Shown here: positions 1,279-17,173 of the stretch, piece after piece
How positions within the stretch are numbered: the first letter of the stretch is position 1
Layout: every line of letters starts with the position of its first letter
Assembly: GCA_963082975.1 (NCBI GenBank)
Contig: OY720344.1
Span: 5,567,580 to 5,631,579, forward strand
Reading direction: 5' to 3'
Length of the DNA: 64,000 nucleotides
Source: Labia minor
Taxonomy: Eukaryota > Arthropoda > Insecta > Dermaptera > Spongiphoridae
Notes under the pieces: generated by a model
Told to the model about the DNA's origin: nothing
Database searches by the model: none
What the model saw: the letters and a program-made list of their open reading frames with translations, nothing else
Made by a program: the position numbers and the translations under genes

Positions 1279-4200
1279 GTAAGAGTTTAATTCAAATTTT
1301 CTACTTATAAACTATATCTCGGATACATTTTCCAAATGATAAAATATTATATTAGACATTGGATTCATTCCATTTGTATTTAAGCACTACAAATATAATA
1401 CAGTGAACGCTCTATATAAGCAACTCATTTGAGCCAATTTCCTTATTTATTTTACTAACTAAACTGTGTCAGAATAAATATAAATAACTATTCTAATTAA
1501 CAGAAATGAACTTCAATACTGGCAGCACAAAACACAAACATATTCTAATAATAGAATTTTTTACAATTTGAGGTTATGTTGTGAATAGCTGCCAATTCAA
1601 ATATTTACCTTAAAAAAAATAAGTTGCTTATACAGAACAGATGAACTAAAAAAGTTGCTTATAGAGAGATTGCTTATATAGGTTCACTGTACTAGTATAG
1701 GTATATAGTAATCAGGGTAATGAATGTATATATGTATATTTTTTATTTTTAATTTTCAAAATATGAAGTCGCCATGCTTGCCGGCCCCTTTATCCGGTGC
1801 TGGGGATAATAAATAGTAAAGTTCATGAGACTAGGAAAATGTTAGTGAAAAGTTGATGTCTAAAAAAAATAATTGAGAAACAAGGTGAAAAGTTATTAGA
1901 TGAAGAGAGGACAGGAATTATGGGTGGAAGGATGGAGGGAGGAATTTGGTTTTCACTTCCAACAACTTTCGAGTACATAGCACCAAAAAAAAAAATTACT
2001 TATTTTGAGATCTAACGATAAAAAATATATTCTAATGCATTCTTATCTTAATAGGCAACTTTGAGTGAGAATTAATTAAAGTGATTATTTTTCAATATTT
2101 TTTCGAATTACATATTGAAAATTAAAGTTATTGAATTATTTTAGATACACCATTATTACGTCGAGTTCCAGCTGTTTATGAGGATGGTGTTTATCAGCCA
2201 ATGGGGAAGAATCGACCCAATCCATTTCTTTTGAGTGAGACAATATTTAAAGGTTCAAGCAAAAGAACTCACTCAGGCAAAACGACATTGCTTGTATTTT
2301 TCGGCAAGTCCATTCTTTCTATACAATCATGGGCCGTTATTACTTTTATTTCTATTTTTTTTTTTAATTTTCCACTTTAAGTAAACTTTCTTACCAATAC
2401 ATCAAGATTATGCAAAAGAAGATAATCATATTTTGGATTTAAAAAATAAATAACTTTATAAAGAATTTTTACCGACCGACGATAGTAAGGGAGGTATTGT
2501 TTTCACACCAAATTTCACATGTGGAGATTTTTACATATCTCCACGAATCATGCATTTTCTTAACCGAAAAAAAGTATTTTTAACATGATGTCTGTCCGTC
2601 TGTCCATTGTGTATAGCTTGAACGGCTCAGCGGATTTGATGAAATTTGGTATATTTACTGAATGCATCAGTATGATGAATTGATCAACTTTTGATGTATA
2701 TCCAGAAACTGGAAGTGGTAGTCTTAGCGATCGACGATAGGAAGGGAAGGATTATTTTCACACCAAATTTCACATGAGGACATATCTCCATGAATCATGC
2801 ACTTTGTATTGATTTTATCCTCGGGAAAAATCACCTTCATTAGTTTTTTCTTAATTTTAAATTATATGTCGTCACCCACACCTTCGTGACGTCACAACCA
2901 GCTCCTACTTGTATATTATAAATAAAATAAAATTAAAAATATCTATGTTATATTTATATCTGTTTTTATTGCTTTAATAGATATATTAAAATTATTTGAA
3001 ATTGTTTCTGTAGCTGGAAATTAATTTACTTCAAACCGTCGGTCGGTTCTGCGCCTGGCCACAGGTCAACTTATTATTTTTAATCTTATCCTATTTGTTC
3101 TTTATTATAATTTTTATTTACCATATTTCTCTTTAAAAAATTATTTGAAATATTAATCGTTTGAATTGATTAAAAAAAGAAGAGTGTAAAGAGGGGGGTG
3201 GTGATTATTCTTTTAAAGAAACAATGTGTTAATTTCTTTTATATGTATATTCTAGGTCAACAGGTGGTTGAAGAAATTTTAGATGCTCAACGTCCCGCAT
3301 GTCCACCGGAATATTTTAATATTGATATTCCAGGAAATCATACTTATTCTAATGAATCGATTCATACCAAAATGCCCTTTCTAAGAACACGTTATGATGT
3401 ACGAACTGGACAAAATCCAGGCAATCCACGTCAACAGGTAAACCTCCCATTTATTTATTTCTTAGGAATGGATTTTTAAATTTACTACTAATTTGTAATG
3501 TTTAGTTGAATGAGATAACGCCTTGGATTGATGGTGGTTTAGTTTACGGCACCACTCGTGTCTGGTCCGATTATCTTAGGCGTTTCTCCAATGGGAGTTT
3601 GGCACCGGACGGAAAATTGGCATGGAGTCATGGCGGACTATTCCCTGCTTATAATGAAGACCGTTTGCCAATGGCAAATCCACCCCCGCCCTTTTACCAT
3701 AAAATATTTGTGAAAAATCACGAAACGTTACCAGTGAATCGATTTTTTAGTATGTATTGAATAAATGCTTGTTGATTTTTTTAATTGAAATTGGAATCGA
3801 TTGTGAATCTAATTTCAATTCTTAAGAAATATTGAATTCTTTTTAAGTAATTGCTTTTTGTTTTCTTTAATTGATTAGAATTAGGCAATCCACGTGGGAA
3901 TGAGAATCCATTTCTCTTAACATTTGGCGTGTTTTGGTTTCGATGGCATAATTATCTTGCTGAAGAAATGAGACAACAACATCCGAAATGGAAAAGTGAA
4001 CAAATTTATGAGGAGGCAAGAAAATGGACCATTGCAACCCAACAACATATTATTGTTAATAATTGGTTGCCACATTGGATTGGATCGAAACTCGATAAAT
4101 ATACGGGTGAATTAGAAATTCAAAAAAGCTGGAGTGTCTCCACTCGACTATCTCGCAAATTTGATTTGGATTAAATAACATAATATATTAAATTTAAATT

Positions 4201-7200
4201 AAATTTAATTAATTATAAATTAGAAATTAAAATTAATAAATAATATTTATTAAATCAGCGCATGTTTGGCTCTTTGTTGATGGAACCATGTCACGTGTTG
4301 GCGCGTGATTTGCAGTGTTAAAAAATTAATTCCGGTACTTTCATCAATTCAATCAAGCTGAAATTCTATATATAGCAGTTTTATACAATTTTTAATCATG
4401 TGAAAAACTATCAAACATATATCTTTATTTTTACGGTCACTTTAGAGGAAAAAAATCAAAACGTTGTAGATAATGACCCTCTTCCGGTTGAGCTACATTT
4501 CTCAAAAGTTGATAGAAAACTACGAATTTTGAATAATTCCCGTATATCAAATTTCATTATTCTAGCTCAAATCGTTTTTGCGTAATCTTGTGTACATACA
4601 TATTTTATAAATTCATTTTGTTTTTTGATTTAGGTTACGATCCAAGTATTAATCCACAAATTGATCAACTCTTTCAAACGGCCGCTTTCCGTTTTGGGCA
4701 TACACTTGTGCCACCAGGTAAACTTCATTCTCGATTCATTTCAAGTTTCAAGATAACCCTTCTTCTATTAATTTCGATTCTGTAATTCTTATGAAATTTT
4801 TATTTTTTAAAGAAATAAAAATAGAATTTTTATTGAATCTTCATTAAATGAGTTTAGGTTTTCTTAGAAAAAAATCCTTAATTATGATCATAATTTTGTT
4901 AATAATTTATGTCGATTGTTTTTCAGGTGTTTTTATAAGAAAACCAGATAATCCTAGTGAATTTAATTTCATTAGAACATGTAACAGTTTTTGGAGGCCA
5001 CAGGTGAGTTTTTATTGCTTGAGAAAAATACCAGATGGACTTACCTTTATTGGAATTAAAATTGAATTAATTTACAAGGTTATAACTTTAAATTGTGTCT
5101 TATTTTAGGATTTTATAGGATTTTCTAATGGAACATTACAAAATATTGATGATCTTATTGTAGGATTGTCATTACAATTATGTGAAAGAGAAGATCGTGT
5201 TATCATTGAAGATTTAAGAGGTTAATTATTTAATTAACTTAATTAGGAAATAAAATGTAGAAATATAGTGTAGAAAAATTAATTGAAGCAGGAAAAGAGG
5301 TCGGACTAGAAATTAATAATGCTAAGACAAAGTATTTAGTAACAGAGAGGAATAGTATTAATGTTAAAATTTATAAAACAATTATTTTACCAGTTGTATT
5401 ATAGGGATGTGAGGCATGGTCTATGACCTTAGGGGACGAGAGTAGATTTAGAGTATTTCTTAATAGGATTCTGAGAAGCATTTATGGGCCAAAGAAAGAT
5501 AAGGTCGCCGGGGAATGGCGAAGATAGCATAACGAGGAATTGCATGATCTCTATGCATCTCCAGATATAGTTAGAATTATAAAATTGAGTGTCACAGAGA
5601 TAGATAGGAAATAAAATAAAAAATATATTATATATATATGAATATATAATTATATCTCATATAATAATCAATATCTCATTTGAAAATTATAATGATTTTT
5701 CAGAACGGGTGTTTGGTCCATTAGAATTTTCTCGAAGGGATTTAATGGCATTAAATATTCAACGCGGCCGAGATCATGGCAACCCCGATTATCTTACAGC
5801 GAGAAAAGCATTCGGATTACATACGCAAAAAGAAAAAGTATCTAAAATTGATTTTCTAAAATGGTAATTGTTTACAAAACGGGAAGCTTCAGGAATTTGA
5901 ATGAAACTTTGCTAAAGGATTCCTTTTTTAATTCTAAAGAAACTTTCCTTATGCATTATTTCTCGGTTTCTTCTACTTTAATAAAAATTATTAAAATTTG
6001 ACCGATAAACTAGTTATGGTAGTATATTTACAATATGTAAGTTTGATGAATTTTGATAAAACTTTACCAGTAGATTCCTTTTTTGAATCCAAACAAACTT
6101 TCTCAAGAAGTATGTGGCGGTCCCTTTTAGTTTACAAGATAAAAATTATTAAAATTTGACAGATAAACTAATTAGTTATGAATGGGCTGCCATTTAATAA
6201 TGTTTTATTGACTAATTCACTAATTCTTCACTTATTTACTAATTTTCGGTTTTTTCAGTTTGATCTGGATATAGGAAAATTATTTAATTAATTGATTTTT
6301 TAATTTTCATATATCCAAACCGAGTTAAAAAAAACAACAGAAAATTAGTGGAGTCCTCTGCTGGTCAAATGAATAAAACATGGTTACTAAATAGAATGTA
6401 AATGGATTTATATGCAATTTTTAAGAGACTGAGAAATATTGCATAAGGAAAGATTCTTTGGAATTAACAAAGGAATCCACTAGCAAATTTTTATCTAACT
6501 CTCTGAAGCTTCCCGTTTTGTAAACAATTACCTATAAAATATTACGATAACTTACGAATCTTTTTTCTTTGATTTTTTTCTTATTTTGTTTTATATTTTA
6601 TTTTTCAGTTACCATTTTGGTCTCAACTGATGAAAATGTATAATAATAAAGAAAAAGATGTAGACGTATGGGTGGGGGGGATGTTCGAAACAGATGATCA
6701 ACGTCCAAGTCCTGGAGAGCTTTTTCAAGCGATAATTAAAGATCAATTTCGAAGAATTCGTGATGGAGATCGGTTTTGGTATAAAAACTCCGGCAATGGG
6801 TGAATATGCCAATTGATTGAACCTTCCTACTGTTTTATCTTGGAATATGGAATACATTTTATATGATTAGAATTCTAAATTATTTTTAGATTATTTAGTG
6901 AAAAAGAAATCAAACGAATTGAAGAGTTAACGATTTATGATATTTTAATGGCAATTACCCAACTTGAACCCAAAGATATTCAAACGAACCCATTTTTAGC
7001 ACCAACCGAGGGTAAATCGATTTTTTAAAACATATATAATTTAGTCATATATATTTTAGTGTTATATTTATTTTATTATTTTAGCCAATGAAGTAAATGT
7101 CAATTTACCAATGAGCGAATGCCGATTCTATTTAAATCTTTCATTATATCCACCATACAGCCATGCAAATTGTTATAATTTACAAGTGGATCGATCCAAT

Positions 7201-10200
7201 CTGGAAGAATGTTCGAAATTAGAAACTTATGATTATTTCTCTGGCAGTGAAATTCCATTTGTTATCACCTTTCTTGCAATAAGCATTACAATTTTAGGTA
7301 AGATATTCATTTCATACAATTCTGACTGACCGAGAATATATATTGAATATATTTTAAATAAAATGCAAAACCGTCCCCTAAAATCAAATTTCAAATCGAT
7401 GCTGTATTTAATGAATTTTTTTTTATTTTCTAGCTTTTAGCGGTTGGGTAACACTAATAAGTTTAAAGTTGCCAACTAGTGAACAGCCACAGGAAGTTCA
7501 ACAAGCAAAAGAATTACAAACTATTGATGCGAATAATTCACAATATTTTGGTAATTCTAAATATTATTTCTATTGAGATTTTACGATTTTTTCAACTAAT
7601 ATAGAATTTGAGTAATGAAGAAATAACCTAGCAATGAAATCAATTTTTTTCTGAAAACACCTTCTCCTTAAAATACAACATTTTCTTTCTTTGTTTATAT
7701 TGTTAAATTATACATAGTTTGAAGGCGCCACAGGGTGGGAAGTAGCTTAACTACCTCCCATTCTCGTGGCCCCTGGTTCAAGTCTCGGACTTGGCAAGAG
7801 AATTTCTCTATGGGACGGAGTCAATCCAGCCTCCGGGATTAAAATTAGGAGGCTACTTGATAAAACGTAGCGCCTCCGATCAAAAAAAATCAAGGTAAAG
7901 GTTGAGAGGACCCGTTCTACTGATCATAGGACACCTCATTGATATAACAGACTTGATAGGCCTTGTCCTTGCGTAGGACGTACAAAAGTCAGAGGTTCTT
8001 TTTTTTATTATTATACATAGTCTACTAGGTTGTTCAATAAGTTCGCGGAGCGCCATCTATTCGTCAGTAATAGACTTCAAAGATTTAAAAAGGCTTCAGG
8101 CACAGTGAACAATATTTTGAGTGTTAATTTGGATTTCAATGTGAAAAATGGGTTCCGCATTCTCTAACGATGGAGCAAAAAAAAAATTCGAGTTGTCAGC
8201 CACATTTGGAGCGTATTAAGAAGAATAAAGGCGATTTTAACCGTCGATTTATCACAATGGATGAGACTTGAGTTTACCAACATGATCCTGAATCAAAACA
8301 GGAGACTAAGGAATGGTGTGAACCCGGTTCTTCGGCGCCGAAGCGAGCTTGTTCAAAAATCAGGCAAGAAGGTGTTAGCATCCGTTTTTGGGATGCAAAA
8401 GGAATTTTGTTTTTAGATTATCTCCAAACTGGGAAAACAATCAATTCGGATTATTATTGTAACCTTTTGAATCAATTAGACGAAAAAATTTGTGAAAGAA
8501 GACCCGGATTACAGAAGAAGCAAATCATTTTCCACCAAGATAACGCACCTGCCCACACAGCTCAAAAAACCATTGCTAAAATAACTGAATTGAAGTACGA
8601 GTTGTTGCAACATCCAGCATATTTGCCAGATTTAACTCCCTCCGACTTCTGACTCTTCCCATTCCTCAAATAATATCTCCGTGGAAAACGAATTTCTTCA
8701 ATCGAAGAGGTAATAGCTGTCATGAAGAGATATTTTGATGAGCTGCCTGAAAACCACTACAGACAAGGGATCCATAAATTAGAAGAGATTTGGAATAAAT
8801 TTATTTAAGTTGAGGGAAACTACGCTGAAAAATAGTAATTTTTACAAATAAAAATTAGTTTCTTCATTTTCGTTCCGCGAACTTATCGAATTCTTATAAT
8901 ATATCAACATATATCAACATATATAATTTATAATCATATTAATATTTCTGTTGAACAGTACATGAACGAATTGGCAAGAATTCCTATCGTAGTGTAATCG
9001 TCTCATTGGATATTCCGAAACGGCAGATTAAAGAGTGTAGCATGTCTGGTGAATTGATTAGGCAACTTGATATGACAAATACTCAAAACCCAATCAAAGT
9101 GTTTATTATTAGTGATGGGCAACATTTATTATTTCGGATGTGCAATGAATATGATTTGGTGAGTAAATTTACATGGTCCATTTATTTATATAATAATAAA
9201 GAAACTATTATAGGAATAATTATCATTTATTTCCTAATCCCCGATATGATAAAATACATTTCCACAGTTAAAACGATTATTTTTTTTACAGATAATCCGA
9301 TTTCAGACAGCTTATGTACGTTCATTATTTTTGAAAAAATTTGAAGAGTTTGTTTTTAAAATACAAGCAAATCGTGATCGAATTAATATTTCATTATCTG
9401 CAGCACTTCGGCAAGCAATTACAAAAAAAGATCGACAACGTCTTTTAGAAAAATTCTTTCGGATTGTTTTTGCTCAGGTAAACCGTTTGTTAGGAAGGAG
9501 TTTGTTTTCAGGGCCCCTTACTAAGCCACTTACTATGCTACTAAAATTAATATTGTAATTTAATCTAAAGCCTTGTTACTTCTTTATTTATGCATTCATA
9601 TTAAAAGATAATTTTTTATAAATCTATTATAATAATAATGATTTATTTACTTTTACAGACTTTCAATCTTTCTCATTCTGATGAAATATTCAAATTAGAT
9701 TCACAAACAGCCAGAGATATTATTTATACTGAGTTAACAAAAACAGAATTTGCTGATGCTCTAAGTATGCTGCCCGATTCTGAATTTGTTACTAAAGTAA
9801 ATATAATTAATATAAATATTATTATTTTTCTTATCTAAATTTATTCACAAATAAACATAATAAATTTATCACATTAAATCATTTCATTTTTACATTTTCA
9901 GATGTTTAATTTTGTCGATAAAGATAAAAATGGATTTATATCATTTCGTGAATTTATGGATTTTCTTATAATTTTTGCAAAAGGTATTATTAAATTATTA
10001 GGTGTATATTAATATATTGGATACCTAAGATCTCTCTGTGACTCTACGGAACTTTCGAGTTCTTGGCCGCAGCAACCACACCCCTCCAAGTATTCCTATT
10101 CTTAGCCACAACCCTCCAGGCCCTATCCTCTCCCATCTCTCTCACATATTTTCCCACATTATCCACCCACTGTGTCCTTGGTCTTCCAAGAGGAGGTTTC

Positions 10201-13200
10201 CCATTCAGTCACCCCCCAATATATTTTTTGCCATTCTATCTTCTCCCATTCTAGCCACGCGCTCTGCCCAGCGCAGCCTTCTTGATTTTATAATTCTAAC
10301 TAACTTTGTCTGAAGATGCATAGAGTTCATGCAATTCCTCGTTATGCAATCTTCGCCATTCCCCGGCGACCTTATCTTTCTTTGGCCCATAAATGCTTCT
10401 CAGAATCCTATTATCAAATACTAAATCTACTCTCGTCCCCTAAGGTCATAGACCATGCCTCACATCCCTATAATACAACGGGTAAAATAATTGTTTTATA
10501 TATTTTAACATTTATCCCTTTGATAATAATTTTGATGCGATAAGCCCCTTTATTGCATGATAACAGGCGTTTCCCGATTGTAACCTCGCTTTGAACTCAT
10601 CTCGAATATTATTATCCTTCATTATTATAGAACCTAAGTATTTAAATTTTTCTACATTTTTAAATTTTTGAATGCCTCTGGATTATATAAACTACGTAGA
10701 TTCCATGTTGCTAATTTTAATTCCTTCATTTTACTAGATACCTAAGATAGAATTAATTATATCTACATGATTTAGAGATCAAATTAAATATATATAGAAA
10801 TTCTAAATACCTAAACATGTATTAAATGGATTTGCAGGATCGACAGAAGCCAAAGCAAAAATGATGTTTGATATGTATGACATCAACGGCACTCAACAAC
10901 TGACAAAAGAGGATTTTAAAAATATGATAAAGTATATCATCAACTTATATATATATATATATATATATATTATATTTTTAAATAATTACTCATATTCTTT
11001 TTTTTGTAGATCATTAATTGAAATTGTCAATGTTGATGTCAATCCCGATCATCTTAATAAAGTAGTGGACTTATTATTACAAAAAGCGAAATTAACACAA
11101 AAGGCAAGAAGAATTACTTAATTTTTTTTTTTATTCATTGAAATTTAGAAAATAATATTTTCTTTTGTAATTATTTACAAAAAGGAAATCTCCAGGGATT
11201 TGGAAGAAACTTCCTGTGGATTCCTTGTTTAATTCTAAAGAAACTTCTCTTATAAAATTTTTCCCGGTCTCTTCTAGTTTACGAGATAAACATTAGTAAA
11301 ATTTGCATATAATTAGCCCATTAACATTCAGTTTGACATCCATATTAATAATTTTTTATGCATTTTTTTCTCCAAAATTATACACTTATTCATTTATTTT
11401 CGATTTTTTTCAGTTTGGTTTAAATATAGAAAAATTATTTAATTAATTTATTTTTTAATTTTCATATTTGCAAAGCGAACTGAAAAAAAAAACCCAGAAA
11501 ATTAGTGAAGCCCTCTGTTGGTCAAATGAATAAAAGATAGTAGCTAAATAGAATGTAAATGGATTCATATGAAAATTTTAATAATTTTTTATCTTGTAAA
11601 CTAGAAGAGTCAGTGAAAAAATTTTGTAAGAAAAGTTTCTTTTGAATTAAACAATGAATCCATAGGTAAAGCTTCATCCAAAAATCTCTGGAAATTCCTG
11701 TTTTGTAAATAATTATCTTTTCTTTAGAATCCTCCAATTTAATATTGATTAAAAAATTGTTTCTAAACTGAATATTTAAGTCATTTGCTGATATATAAAT
11801 TGTAAAAAATCTGGAGTGTCTCCACTCGACTATCTCGTAATTTGAATTGGAATAAATAACATAATATATTATATTTAAATTAAATTTAATTAATTATAAG
11901 TTATAAATTAAAATTAATAAATAATATTTATTAAACCAGCGCACGTTTGGCTCTTTGTTGATGACACCACGTCACGTGTTGGCGCATGAGATTTGCAGTG
12001 TTAAAAAATTAATTCTGGTACTTTCAGCGATTCAATCAAGCTGAAATTCTATATATAGCAGTTTTATACAATTTTTCATCATGTAAAAAACTATCAAACC
12101 TATATCTTTATTTTTACGGTCACTTTAGAAGAAAAAAAATCAAAACGTTGTAGGAAATGACCCTCTTCCGGTTGAGCTACATTTCTCAAAAGTTGATAGA
12201 AAACTATGAATTTTGAATAATGCCCATGTAAAATTTCTCTGGCGAGATAGTAAAAATTATAGTATTAAATTATGTACGTCTGAATACATTTTTATATTAA
12301 TTGATTAATATTCTTTTTAAAAAGAAATTAAAAAAATATAGTAATAATAATTAACTGACTATGTAGATAGACACAGAGAATAAGTAGTTCTTCTTAACAA
12401 ATGATCTACTATATTTATTAATTATGTGTTTTCTTCAATTCAAAATAAATAAATACTGGTATACTTTTATTTTTAGGACGCTTTACGTTATCAGGATTTT
12501 CAGCAAGTACTCCTAGAAGGCACTAATCAGGTGTCTAATTTGAAATTGAATTTTACTTTTGGCGAAGTTGGCGTTGCCAGTTCTAGCACTGGGCGATCGC
12601 CAAGCACTTTTAGCCTTTACAGGTATTTCCTATTTTAAAATCATATAAAATAATTTTTTATTTAAGAATATACGCGTATGAAATAAGTTTTAATATAATG
12701 TTTATTATTAATTAATTTTATTAATTTAATTTATTTTTTTTATTTTTTTTTAAATTTTTTTTTATTAATTTTATATTGAAGTGATGCGCTTAATGATATA
12801 ACACCCTCTGATGCGGATCGAATGATAGATGAAGATCAAGAGAAGGCAATGGCGCATCGTGATCCAGGCGATGGATTAATTTTTAATATAGCGAGAGAAA
12901 AATCCAAAACACGACGACATTTAGGAAATTATGCCTTGGAAATATTCTGGTTAACTTTATATACTTTGATTTTATTTGCTATTTTTGCTGAACGAGCTTA
13001 TCGTAAGTATATATGCAAACCAGTCTTGTTTTAGTGTCAGTGCTAGTGCTGAGTATTATTCAAAACTTAGAACGTAGTAAGTCAATGATTACCCACTTAT
13101 TCAAATCAAAATCCCAACATACACTCCTGATCACACAGTCTAAGACCCAAAATCCCGAAAATCCCCTCCTAAAAGACTCTCTTGAAAATGGCACCAAAAT

Positions 13201-16200
13201 GGTCGCCGGAACTCCAAGTTTCAAATCTCACAATAACACGTGAAAATAACTTTTCATCTATATACTAGTATATATATTTGTTGTCTCTTAATTTTATTAA
13301 AATATATTACCGATTTGGTTTGTTGTTTTAGACTATTCCATCGAACGAGAGCATGGAGGTCTTCGACAAATTGCTAGTTACGGTGTAACGGTAACGCGAG
13401 GCGCTGCTTCAGCTATTATGTTTTGTTTAAGCTCCTTGCTTGTGCCCATGTGTCGAAATTGTATCACTTTTCTCCGTGATAAACGCGCTCACGATTGGAT
13501 ACCCTTTGATTCTGCCATTAATTTTCACAAATATGTTGCATGCTGGGCACTCTTTTTTATCAGCAAGTATTCTTTCAATTTATTTGAAATTATTTTACTT
13601 TTATATCTTAAAAATTAATATTTAATTGAATAAAAAATGGATCAATATTTCCCATTATTATTTTTATACGCATTTTTAAAAATTTTTTTAAATTTTGAAG
13701 CTCCTCTTGCTGGAAAACTATAATATAAAATATACGAGGTGTGTTCAAAATTAAGGGAAAGTTTAACATTTCTCAGACTAAAAGAGTCTGGAAATTTTCT
13801 TTTCATTTTTTGCCATATTGATGCTCAATTTCTTTTCTGTTAGCGAAAAATAAATACGATTTTACTAAGATCGTCCATTTATTATATGCACTATAAATAA
13901 GTTTTATAGAATTATAGTATTATAGAATTTGATTTTAATTTGAATAAAAGAATGCTAGTGTAGCCATATTTTGTTAATGATGGCCCAGCCATCATATTCT
14001 CCAGTTATGGCCCTCTTTGGCTTACTGATGTCAAAATAAAGAAAACCTCTGCATGGTTGAGATTAAAAGCGCAAAATCTATTTAAAGATCGTGTTTCACA
14101 AGAGTTTCGGAGATTAGAAAAAGTGCTGTTATAAATGTATATTATATGATGGAGACTACTCTTTTTTAACGATTATTTTTAAATTTAAATTTTAAACACA
14201 TCTCATATAATATATTTTAATCATTCTTTATATTCTAATTTATTTTTTTTCTAGTTGTGCATATCATCGGACATTCATTTAATTTTTATTTTATATCAAC
14301 CCAAACATCGGATGACCTAACCTGTCTCTTTCGGAATTTTCATCATTCGTAAGTTTTCACCATTACAATTTAAACAAAAGAAAGAAATATTCTGTAGATA
14401 TTAAATTATTAAAGCTTTGGTGGTTGTTTTTATTTATAAGGGAATTTTGTAAATAAAACCACATATTGATATTTGTTATTGTAAATTTATTCAAAAAATA
14501 CAATCGTCACTGGACGCTCGAACAGTGCAGTCGCTTGATAACGATTGCAAAAGTAGCAATCGAAACGTGTATATTTTTTGTATTTTTTGAATAAATTTAC
14601 AATAACAAATATCAATATGTGGTTTTATTTACAAAATTCCCTTATAAAGAAATATTCTATTAAAAATTACATAGGTTTACACTTTTCGATAGTGCATTTT
14701 CATGTCAGTGACTTTTTGAATTTCTCTCATAATAACTTTAAATAAATCACTGTTCCAGTCAATTATCATCTGATAGAAAATATACTTCTGGTATTTATAG
14801 TATATATTTCTTCTTTATAGAACACATGAAATTCCAAAATTTCAATATTGGTGTTGGGGCACAATTACGGGTGTGACTGGAGTTTTCTTGACAATTTTTA
14901 CTGCTTGTATTTATTTATTTGCGTTGCCAACGGTACGACATCGATGGTATAATAGCTTTTGGATTGTCCATTCGCTCTACCCGTTCTATTTCCTTTTGCT
15001 CATCTTTCATGGATCTGGCCGATTAGTTCAAGTAAATATTTATAAAATAATATTAATTATTTAATACTATACTTATTTTTTTCTGATAATGTGTATATAA
15101 AAAATTATCTAATTATATTTTATTGAAATAAAATAATTTTATAGCCTCTTGATCAATGTAAATGAATAAATTAATGGTAATTGTTTACATAATTGGAAGG
15201 TTCAGGGATTTGGATGAAACTTTACCTGTGGATTCCTTTTTTAATTCGAAAGAAACTTTTCTTATAAAATTTTTCCCGGTCTCTTCTAGTTTACGAGATA
15301 AACATTAGTAAAATTTACATATAATTAGCCCATTAACATTCAGTTTGACATCCATATTAATAATTTTTTATGCATTGTTTCTCCAAATTTATACACTTAT
15401 TCATTAATTTTCGATTTTTTTTCAGTTTGGTTTAAATATAGAAAAATTATTTAATTCATTTATTTTTTAATTTTCATATATGCAAAGCGAACTGAAAAAA
15501 AACCCAGAAAATTAGTGAAGCTCTCTGCTGGTCAAATGAATAAAAGATAGTAACCCGGTCTTTTCTAGTTTATTAGATAAAAATTATTAAAGTTTGACAG
15601 ATAAACTAGTTATAAATGTGAGCAACCCCATTTAGTAATGATTTATTGACTACTTTACTATTTATTCAATTATTCACTAATTTTCGGTTTTTATAAGTTC
15701 GGTTTGGATATAGGAAAATTATTTAATTAATTAATTTTTTTTAATTTTCATATATCCAAACCGAACCGAAAAAAAAACCACCAAAATTCCTCAGCTGGCC
15801 AAATGAATAAAACATGGTAGCTAAATAGAATATAAATGGTTTTTGATTTTTATCTCGTAAACTAGAAGAGACCGAGAAATATTGTATAAGAAACGTTTCT
15901 TTGGAATTAAACAAGGAATCCACAGGTAGGGTTTCATCCAAATCCCTGAAGCTTCCCGTTTTGTAAATAATTACAAAAGAAAATATTATTTTCTAAATTT
16001 CAATGAATAAAAAAAGATATTAAGTAATTCTTCTTATCTTTTGTGTTAATTTCGCTTTTTGTAATAATAAATCCACTACTTTATTAAGATGATGAATCAA
16101 CAGGCAAAGTTTCATCCAAATCCCTGAAGTTTCCCGAATAATAAACAACTACGCAATTAATAAATAATTAAATAAAATGTTTTTTCTTTTTACAGCCTCC

Positions 16201-17173
16201 ATTTTTTTATTATTTTTTTCTGGGACCTTGTATTTTATTTGCTTTGGATCAAATAGTTAGTGTTTCAAGAAAAAAAGTAGAAATTCCAGTAATAAAATCG
16301 CAAATATTACCTTCAGGTATTTATTCGTTTATTTAATTATATAAACAATATTGTTTATAAAGTATCTGAAACACATGATTTTAAAAAAAAAATATTTGAT
16401 TTAAAAAATAATTGAAAATTATAAATTTTTAATTATATTTAATATTGAAAACATAATAATAAAGTTTAAATGAAATTTAATATCAAAAATAAAATAAGAA
16501 TTACTTAATATTTAATTGGAAATCAAGTTACGAATTTATAATTGGTACAAGCGAGTGATGCAAATCACATTATTATTATCTTGTACCACATGCAGACTTT
16601 GTTGCGGATAACATGGTCTTAGTGCATGATAATGCAAGGAGTCAAAATTAAAGTTCCTTAAAGAAGTTGGCATTCGGAATTTGAACTTGAACTTGCCAGC
16701 ATTCAGCCCAGACTTGATCATTATTGAAATTTTTTGGGCCCACATTAAAAGAGTTCAAATCTGAATGGAAGCACCTTTAGACTTTAAGCGATCCCACAAA
16801 CAACAACAAAAATTTAATTACATTTTTGAAAAATTGCACCGATAATGTGTACGAGGTCTGTTCAAAAGAAAAGGTGAATTTTGAATTTTCGTGGGCTGTG
16901 TACATTCGATTAACGAAATTTTTTTATATTGGTACATATATATTTCTCATATGTTCACATTATCAGCCATTTTGGAATAGTAGTTTGGTTTTAACTACTG
17001 AGAGAGTTGGTCACATTTTTATGTGTTTTTCGATTTTTACTTTCCCGCATACTTCGTATAAGGGAAGTATTGGAATCGTCAAAAATTTCGACTTCGAGAT
17101 TTTGATAGATCTTGACGTTTTAGACCTCCCTGAGTCGGAAAATACCATTTTTGGAATTATGTCTGTGTGTGTG

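Follow-up and report, generated by a model that had tools for sequence, protein, structure and literature searches.

Intron 25 of the dual oxidase (DUOX) gene of Labia minor carries a stretch of DNA that reads as part of exon 20 of the same gene in the opposite orientation. How did a piece of a coding exon come to lie there, and does it act on the transcript? We analyzed these questions in a window of 64,000 nucleotides (the whole stretch of DNA under study), for which an earlier, sequence-only reading had proposed the capture of a gene fragment by a transposon.

The exon 20 copy and the element that holds it

A series of in-frame exons in the window encoded a partial DUOX. Its 648-residue translation aligned with DUOX1 of known structure (6wxr_A; E 1.2e-171), and the alignment spanned exon 20 too. 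Exon numbers follow the sequence-only reading and are not counted from the gene start, and the exon model is without one exon, upstream of the part used. The source exon and its copy, hereafter the cargo, are as follows:

11010..11103, forward strand: DUOX exon 20, the source exon (94 nt; in-frame model and alignment with DUOX1 6wxr_A)
11048-11103, forward strand: captured coding part of exon 20 (its final 56 nt)
11104..11105, forward strand: GC splice donor of exon 20 (AAAAG/GCAAG, boundary at the slash; the copy has AT there)
15976..16093, reverse strand: cargo, an inverted copy of 11048-11165 (3' part of exon 20, donor, and intron start)

The EF-hand region of DUOX includes exon 20 (11010-11103), and the reading frame continues over the GC donor into exon 21. 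GT dinucleotides within 11090-11240 are located at 11167 (the first downstream of the donor), 11216, and 11227, and since all of them lie in M2, the transposon of intron 20, the GC is the plausible donor. A GC donor (TTATCA/GCAAGT) was also observed at another DUOX exon, 13332-13562, making two in this gene.

The reverse complement of the cargo aligned with 11048-11165 free of gaps and was identical at 113 of 118 positions, the differences being at 11070, 11104, 11105, 11123, and 11125. The cargo comprises 56 coding nt, the two donor bases, 52 nt of intron, and, in addition, the left target-site duplication of M2. Identity continued for 17 nt more into the M2 terminus, to 11182, with the first further difference at 11183. 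Similarly, an inverted-repeat search of the window paired 11048-11210 with 15931-16093 (163 nt, 94% complementary). The sequence-only reading had described a 131-base inverted and nearly identical copy of the exon 20 3' part, its GC donor, and the intron start up to M2, and our alignments agreed with it, both in content and in identity (96% over 15962-16092). It had also considered that the identity might be confined to transposon sequence, which is not so, as 118 bases of the copy lie outside M2.

When 15962-16092 was searched in its own assembly (604 Mb, 71 contigs), by a search that passes over simple repeats and very common words, there were two matches, namely, itself and exon 20 (96%, 131 bases). 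No third place with the cargo, and no further transposon copy carrying it, for which the sequence-only reading had suggested looking, was found by this search of one 604-Mb genome assembly. Within the window, the runner-up match to 15972-16093 was 69% identical over 109 columns in AT-rich DNA. Chance similarity was ruled out by the two matches in 604 Mb. A retrocopy was likewise ruled out because the cargo runs unspliced over the exon-intron border and is not followed by poly(A).

The cargo lies in an intron of 15032-16195, flanked by exons 14821-15031 and 16196-16316, and is enclosed there in a copy of the transposon family M. This family consists of MITEs whose long inverted termini read GGTAATTATTTACAAAAC... 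or GGTAATTGTTTACAAAAC... according to subfamily. The two copies of concern, M2 in intron 20 and the composite M3 in intron 25, are composed as follows:

11158..11165, forward strand: left target-site duplication of M2, TTTTCTTT, 8 bp
11166..11717, forward strand: M2, MITE in intron 20 (552 bp, long terminal inverted repeats)
15168..15175, forward strand: left target-site duplication of M3, AAATTAAT
15176..16153, no strand assigned: M3, composite M element holding the cargo (978 bp, intron 25; placed by termini and duplication)
15260..15552, forward strand: M2-derived left arm, a direct-orientation copy of 11248-11542
15553..15957, forward strand: recipient body, not M2-derived (74% to M2)
15846..15975, reverse strand: inner M terminus adjoining the cargo (outermost 17 nt as in M2, the remainder mosaic)
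16094..16153, reverse strand: stub of the recipient's right terminus (60 nt, joined straight to exon sequence)
16154..16161, forward strand: right target-site duplication of M3, CAATTAAT

Along most of its length, M2 matched its reverse complement with 72% identity. Its right duplication, 11718-11725, equals the left one in 8 of 8 bases, an agreement that random pairs reach at a frequency of 0.00014. The M3 duplications match in 7 of 8 bases, and at least 7 of 8 is found in 0.002 of random pairs. Both ends of M3, 15176 and 16153, aligned with M family termini; the leftmost part is a terminus of the second subfamily, and the right end is the 60-nt stub. Because the target-site duplication flanks the whole of M3, the cargo lies inside one inserted element. 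The sequence-only reading had placed it between M termini in intron 25, and we can now assign it to a complete M element, 15176-16153. Furthermore, the duplication of M2 was observed, inverted, within the cargo at 15976-15983, where it adjoins the inner M terminus, which identifies the cargo as the left flank of M2.

The 8-bp duplication is a feature of the whole family. A first look at the genome gave 3789 candidate relatives, of which 40 were scored; loci were taken for 30, and 26 full-length ones were used, leaving out L003 (M2 itself), L022 (M3), and the incomplete L029 and L031. The 8 bases flanking the GGT...ACC ends agreed in these 26 relatives at a mean of 6.19 of 8, as compared to 3.42 in shuffled pairs (1000 shuffles, maximum 4.19). 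Agreement was 8 in eight, 7 in eight, 6 in two, 5 in three, 4 in one, 3 in two, and 2 in two of them, such that 7 or 8 bases agreed in 16 of 26. Superfamilies other than hAT also make 8-bp duplications, so the presence of one in M does not decide its membership of hAT. A duplication of 8 bp is given for hAT in PMC8903248.

Other repeats were observed in the DUOX region. An M element at about 5863-6532, in a DUOX intron, has a second M terminus inside (5871-6015 vs 6027-6173, 75%), and from this case terminus duplication may be recurrent in the family. A repeat of 92% identity (447 columns) joins 4113-4555 to 11794-12237, the second copy being in intron 20 just 3' of M2. Another DUOX intron contains an inverted repeat at 14429-14652, with 75-bp arms that are 99% complementary and 74 bp between them, suggestive of a foldback element or a MITE of recent origin. 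An open frame at 8272-8652, also in a DUOX intron, resembles what we take to be the remains of a mariner-like transposase.

Comparison of M3 with M2 and its relatives

The left arm of M3 matched 11248-11542 at 284 positions, with 8 mismatches and 4 gap columns. The identity between left arm and M2 was 93% over 374 bp, and the best other copy among the 40 scored of 3789 candidates reached 87%. Next, we compared the departures of M2 from the majority state of the 26 relatives. In 11240-11542 there are 31 such departures, and the left arm shares 26 of them; at the remaining ones it has the majority state at four and a third state at one (11363), and it has eight changes of its own. Four other sites classed as differing in both arose solely from the inner right terminus and are not part of this sum (31 = 26 + 4 + 1). 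When the count was restricted to states seen in no more than 4 of the 26 relatives, 20 of 25 departures were common to M2 and the left arm. The departures are not all rare, with a maximum of 13 of 26 relatives at 11317, and six of them are consecutive (11358-11363) and may reflect one change or an alignment effect. The departures common to both begin at 11291. Expansion of the family alone was rejected as the cause of the M2/M3 likeness in the left arm, given the 26 of 31 shared departures and the 87% of the next scored copy; this rejection rests on 40 of 3789 candidates scored and loci from 30, and a closer copy is possible among the others. M2, with its flank, is the source of both the cargo and the left arm. 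The recipient body had its best long matches, among those listed, at 79% (411 columns) and 81% (320 columns).

If the cargo and the left arm originated in one event, they are expected to have diverged equally. Indeed, the cargo differs from its source at 5 of 118 positions and the arm at 8 of 292 (plus 4 gap columns), which agrees with that prediction (Fisher p 0.53). In present M3, the two lie apart and in opposite orientations, which an inversion of the inner part through the termini could account for. Such an inversion predicts a reciprocal switch of subfamily markers between the two ends. We used 10 diagnostic sites, deduced from 52 and 7 termini of the two subfamilies, with the states of the second subfamily taken from 7 termini in the window. 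At 11173 and 11227, the left terminus is of the other subfamily type and the inner right terminus of the M2 type; at 11255, 11259, and 11264, the pattern is the opposite, with the left end of the M2 type and the inner right end of the other type. Thus, the switch between the M3 ends is reciprocal and falls between 11227 and 11255, and this pattern supports the inversion. The evidence for the inversion comes from these five sites, since at the other five (11189, 11192, 11212, 11215, and 11248) the two ends cannot be told apart. When it was undone on paper, cargo and arm became collinear with 11048-11542.

One interval did not conform. Both ends of M3 lack the M2 departures at 11183, 11186, 11205, 11236, and 11247 and the 2-nt gap at 11212. 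The comparison of M2 with the inner terminus over 11166-11247 gave 7 mismatches in 79 positions plus 6 gap columns, as compared to 13 of 410 in cargo and arm together (Fisher p 0.03). With six departures missing and an excess of divergence, continuity of the tract at 11183-11247 is not established. Conversion near the crossover or a later change in M2 would explain the discrepancy.

The junctions at 15552/15553 and 16093/16094 are without clear homology. The motif TGTTGAT is present in the stub and also in the source at 11031-11037, so a small deletion after copying could have moved the left bound of the cargo inward from a position more to the left.

Probable break repair and the alternative routes

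We consider it probable that a break in the element of intron 25 was repaired by copying M2 together with its flank, and that the inner part was inverted later. At the outset, an M element with long inverted termini and 8-bp duplications would already have been present in intron 25, alongside M2 in intron 20. Approximately 40 bp of this recipient would have been lost in a double-strand break close to its right end, perhaps an abortive excision by the transposase. In the inversion model, the missing part is the equivalent of 11224-11262 in M2, as the stub ends at 11223 and the body starts at 11263. The gap would then have been filled with the sister M2, 3.5 kb away, as the template. A tract of approximately 495 bp (11048-11542) would have been copied, entered by homology in the left part of M2; copying would have left M2 via its terminus and duplication, run through intron 20, and reached the 3' end of exon 20. 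There it would have halted, and the new end would have been attached to the 60-nt stub by end joining. Afterward, recombination or template switching between the terminus within the fill and the far terminus of the element would have turned the inner part round, thereby separating the exon piece from the M2 arm. From the arrangement now observed, we infer that a break occurred and what caused it, that one tract was copied, and in which order the events took place.

Alternatively, separate events of ectopic gene conversion or template switching might have copied the arm directly and the M2 terminus with its flank in inverted form, with no inversion at all. This would account for the M2 departures at 11183-11247 that are missing in M3, and template switching, homogenization of arms, and inversion of the spacer readily occur at inverted repeats (PMC8604942). 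However, two independent copyings from one donor, with similar divergence, are then required, and the reciprocal marker switch is left unexplained. We regard this course as rather unlikely.

A Pack-TYPE capture, in which M2 and another M element, once inserted in exon 20, were recognized as one unit and moved with the exon piece to intron 25, appears improbable. The composite does have outer termini with a 7/8 target-site duplication around them, and the movement of neighboring insertions as one is the model presented in PMC8903248 and PMC13317346. Nevertheless, a coding exon would have had to receive an M element, of which there is no trace at 11047/11048, and identity to M2 is just 74-75% on the right side of the composite. 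Moreover, the cargo and the M2 arm are presently not collinear, and a mobilized cargo is expected in more copies, none of which appeared in the assembly search. The sequence-only reading had favored such a Pack-MITE-like capture from a neighboring insertion. Its first half is supported, as the fragment was taken from the flank of neighboring M2 and now lies within another M element of DUOX; mobilization is not supported, the cargo having been found in one element only of the assembly. Because of the two non-homologous junctions and the mosaic of M2-derived and other arms, break repair is favored over packaging by transposase.

Repeats commonly cause assemblies to fuse two regions, but with 3-4% divergence, distinct subfamily contexts and surroundings, and a target-site duplication around M3, such an artefact is extremely improbable.

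Known systems and the DUOX transcript

The proposed break repair and inversion have parts in common with several systems already described. Like M3, plant Pack-TYPE elements such as Pack-MULE and Pack-CACTA are non-autonomous, with inverted termini, a duplication, and an enclosed gene fragment, and neighboring insertions are involved in both (PMC8903248 and PMC13317346). M3 has terminal inverted repeats at both ends, a duplication of the family length, and a host gene fragment in between. The fragment mobilized with its element is the feature missing, with two matches in one genome, one of which is the source exon. The likeness is therefore structural, since nothing indicates that the cargo has moved. 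Unlike Pack-TYPE elements, M3 was found as a single copy, its cargo derives from DNA flanking a sister element within DUOX itself, and it has mosaic arms and non-homologous junctions in an animal genome.

In abortive gap repair of cut-and-paste transposons, a break in the transposon is copied from another copy, and the copying ends prematurely. M3 differs in that its donor would be a sister copy at a non-allelic site of the one gene and that copying would have overrun the transposon into an exon. Class 2 templated sequence insertions, as described in PMC5110952, resemble M3 in that a patch comes from elsewhere and lacks poly(A), and in that the junctions have little homology and a small deletion. 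In M3, the donor exon is likewise intact and in frame, and no duplication was made by the insert. In contrast to these insertions, the patch of M3 probably stems from copying that entered a sister transposon through homology and took its flank, and a later rearrangement of this patch would have proceeded via inverted termini. That rearrangement is comparable to the spacer inversion and arm homogenization of PMC8604942, where the inner part is turned and arms are exchanged between inverted repeats; for the spacer inversions it describes, arms are 10-16 bp with spacers of a few bases, whereas in M3 the arms are approximately 129 bp and the turned part approximately 800 bp. No insect MITE capturing an exon through a sister's flank was recognized in titles and abstract openings, and neither this DUOX locus nor the term 'Pack-MITE' had a literature match, most subscription journals being outside the scope of both searches.

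The uptake of gene pieces by small DNA transposons has often been argued from end products. Here, the capture route is readable because donor, recipient, both duplications, and the marker sites persist within about 5 kb. M3 may thus be seen as a readable fossil, in which the repair of one MITE copied its sister and overran the edge into an exon. M-like elements are numerous (3789 first-look candidates) and include pairs in one gene; the route could therefore be frequent and local, and it would tend to deposit exon copies within the same transcript.

Does such a copy affect the transcript? The cargo is probably a neutral passenger in DUOX. Energetically, its RNA could pair with exon 20: the duplex was calculated at -162 kcal/mol, as compared to the best value of -43.3 among 191 control windows of DUOX. 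In a competition folding, 132 of 158 bases of the exon 20 region were predicted to pair with the cargo stretch even with the M2 and M3 hairpins competing, in a shortened model with a 30-nt linker in place of the intervening sequence. A function through this pairing with exon 20 and its GC donor, altering splicing, circularization of exons 21-25, editing, or small RNAs, seems very unlikely. Such a duplex energy is expected of any inverted copy and is no evidence of selection or function. The cargo is also transcribed about 4.9 kb after the donor, by which time U1 may have acted. By the same measure, it is hardly to be expected that a cis duplex spanning exon 20 with its GC donor (approximately 120-135 bp) tunes exon inclusion, makes circles of exons 21-25, or feeds dsRNA processing.

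In favor of a function, two of the five differences between cargo and source fall on donor positions +1 and +2. In the modelled duplex, they give a G-U wobble at +1 and a C-A mismatch at +2, and the donor is thus a weak spot. In this small sample, GC in the gene and AT in the copy would fit an older GT donor that changed once on each side.
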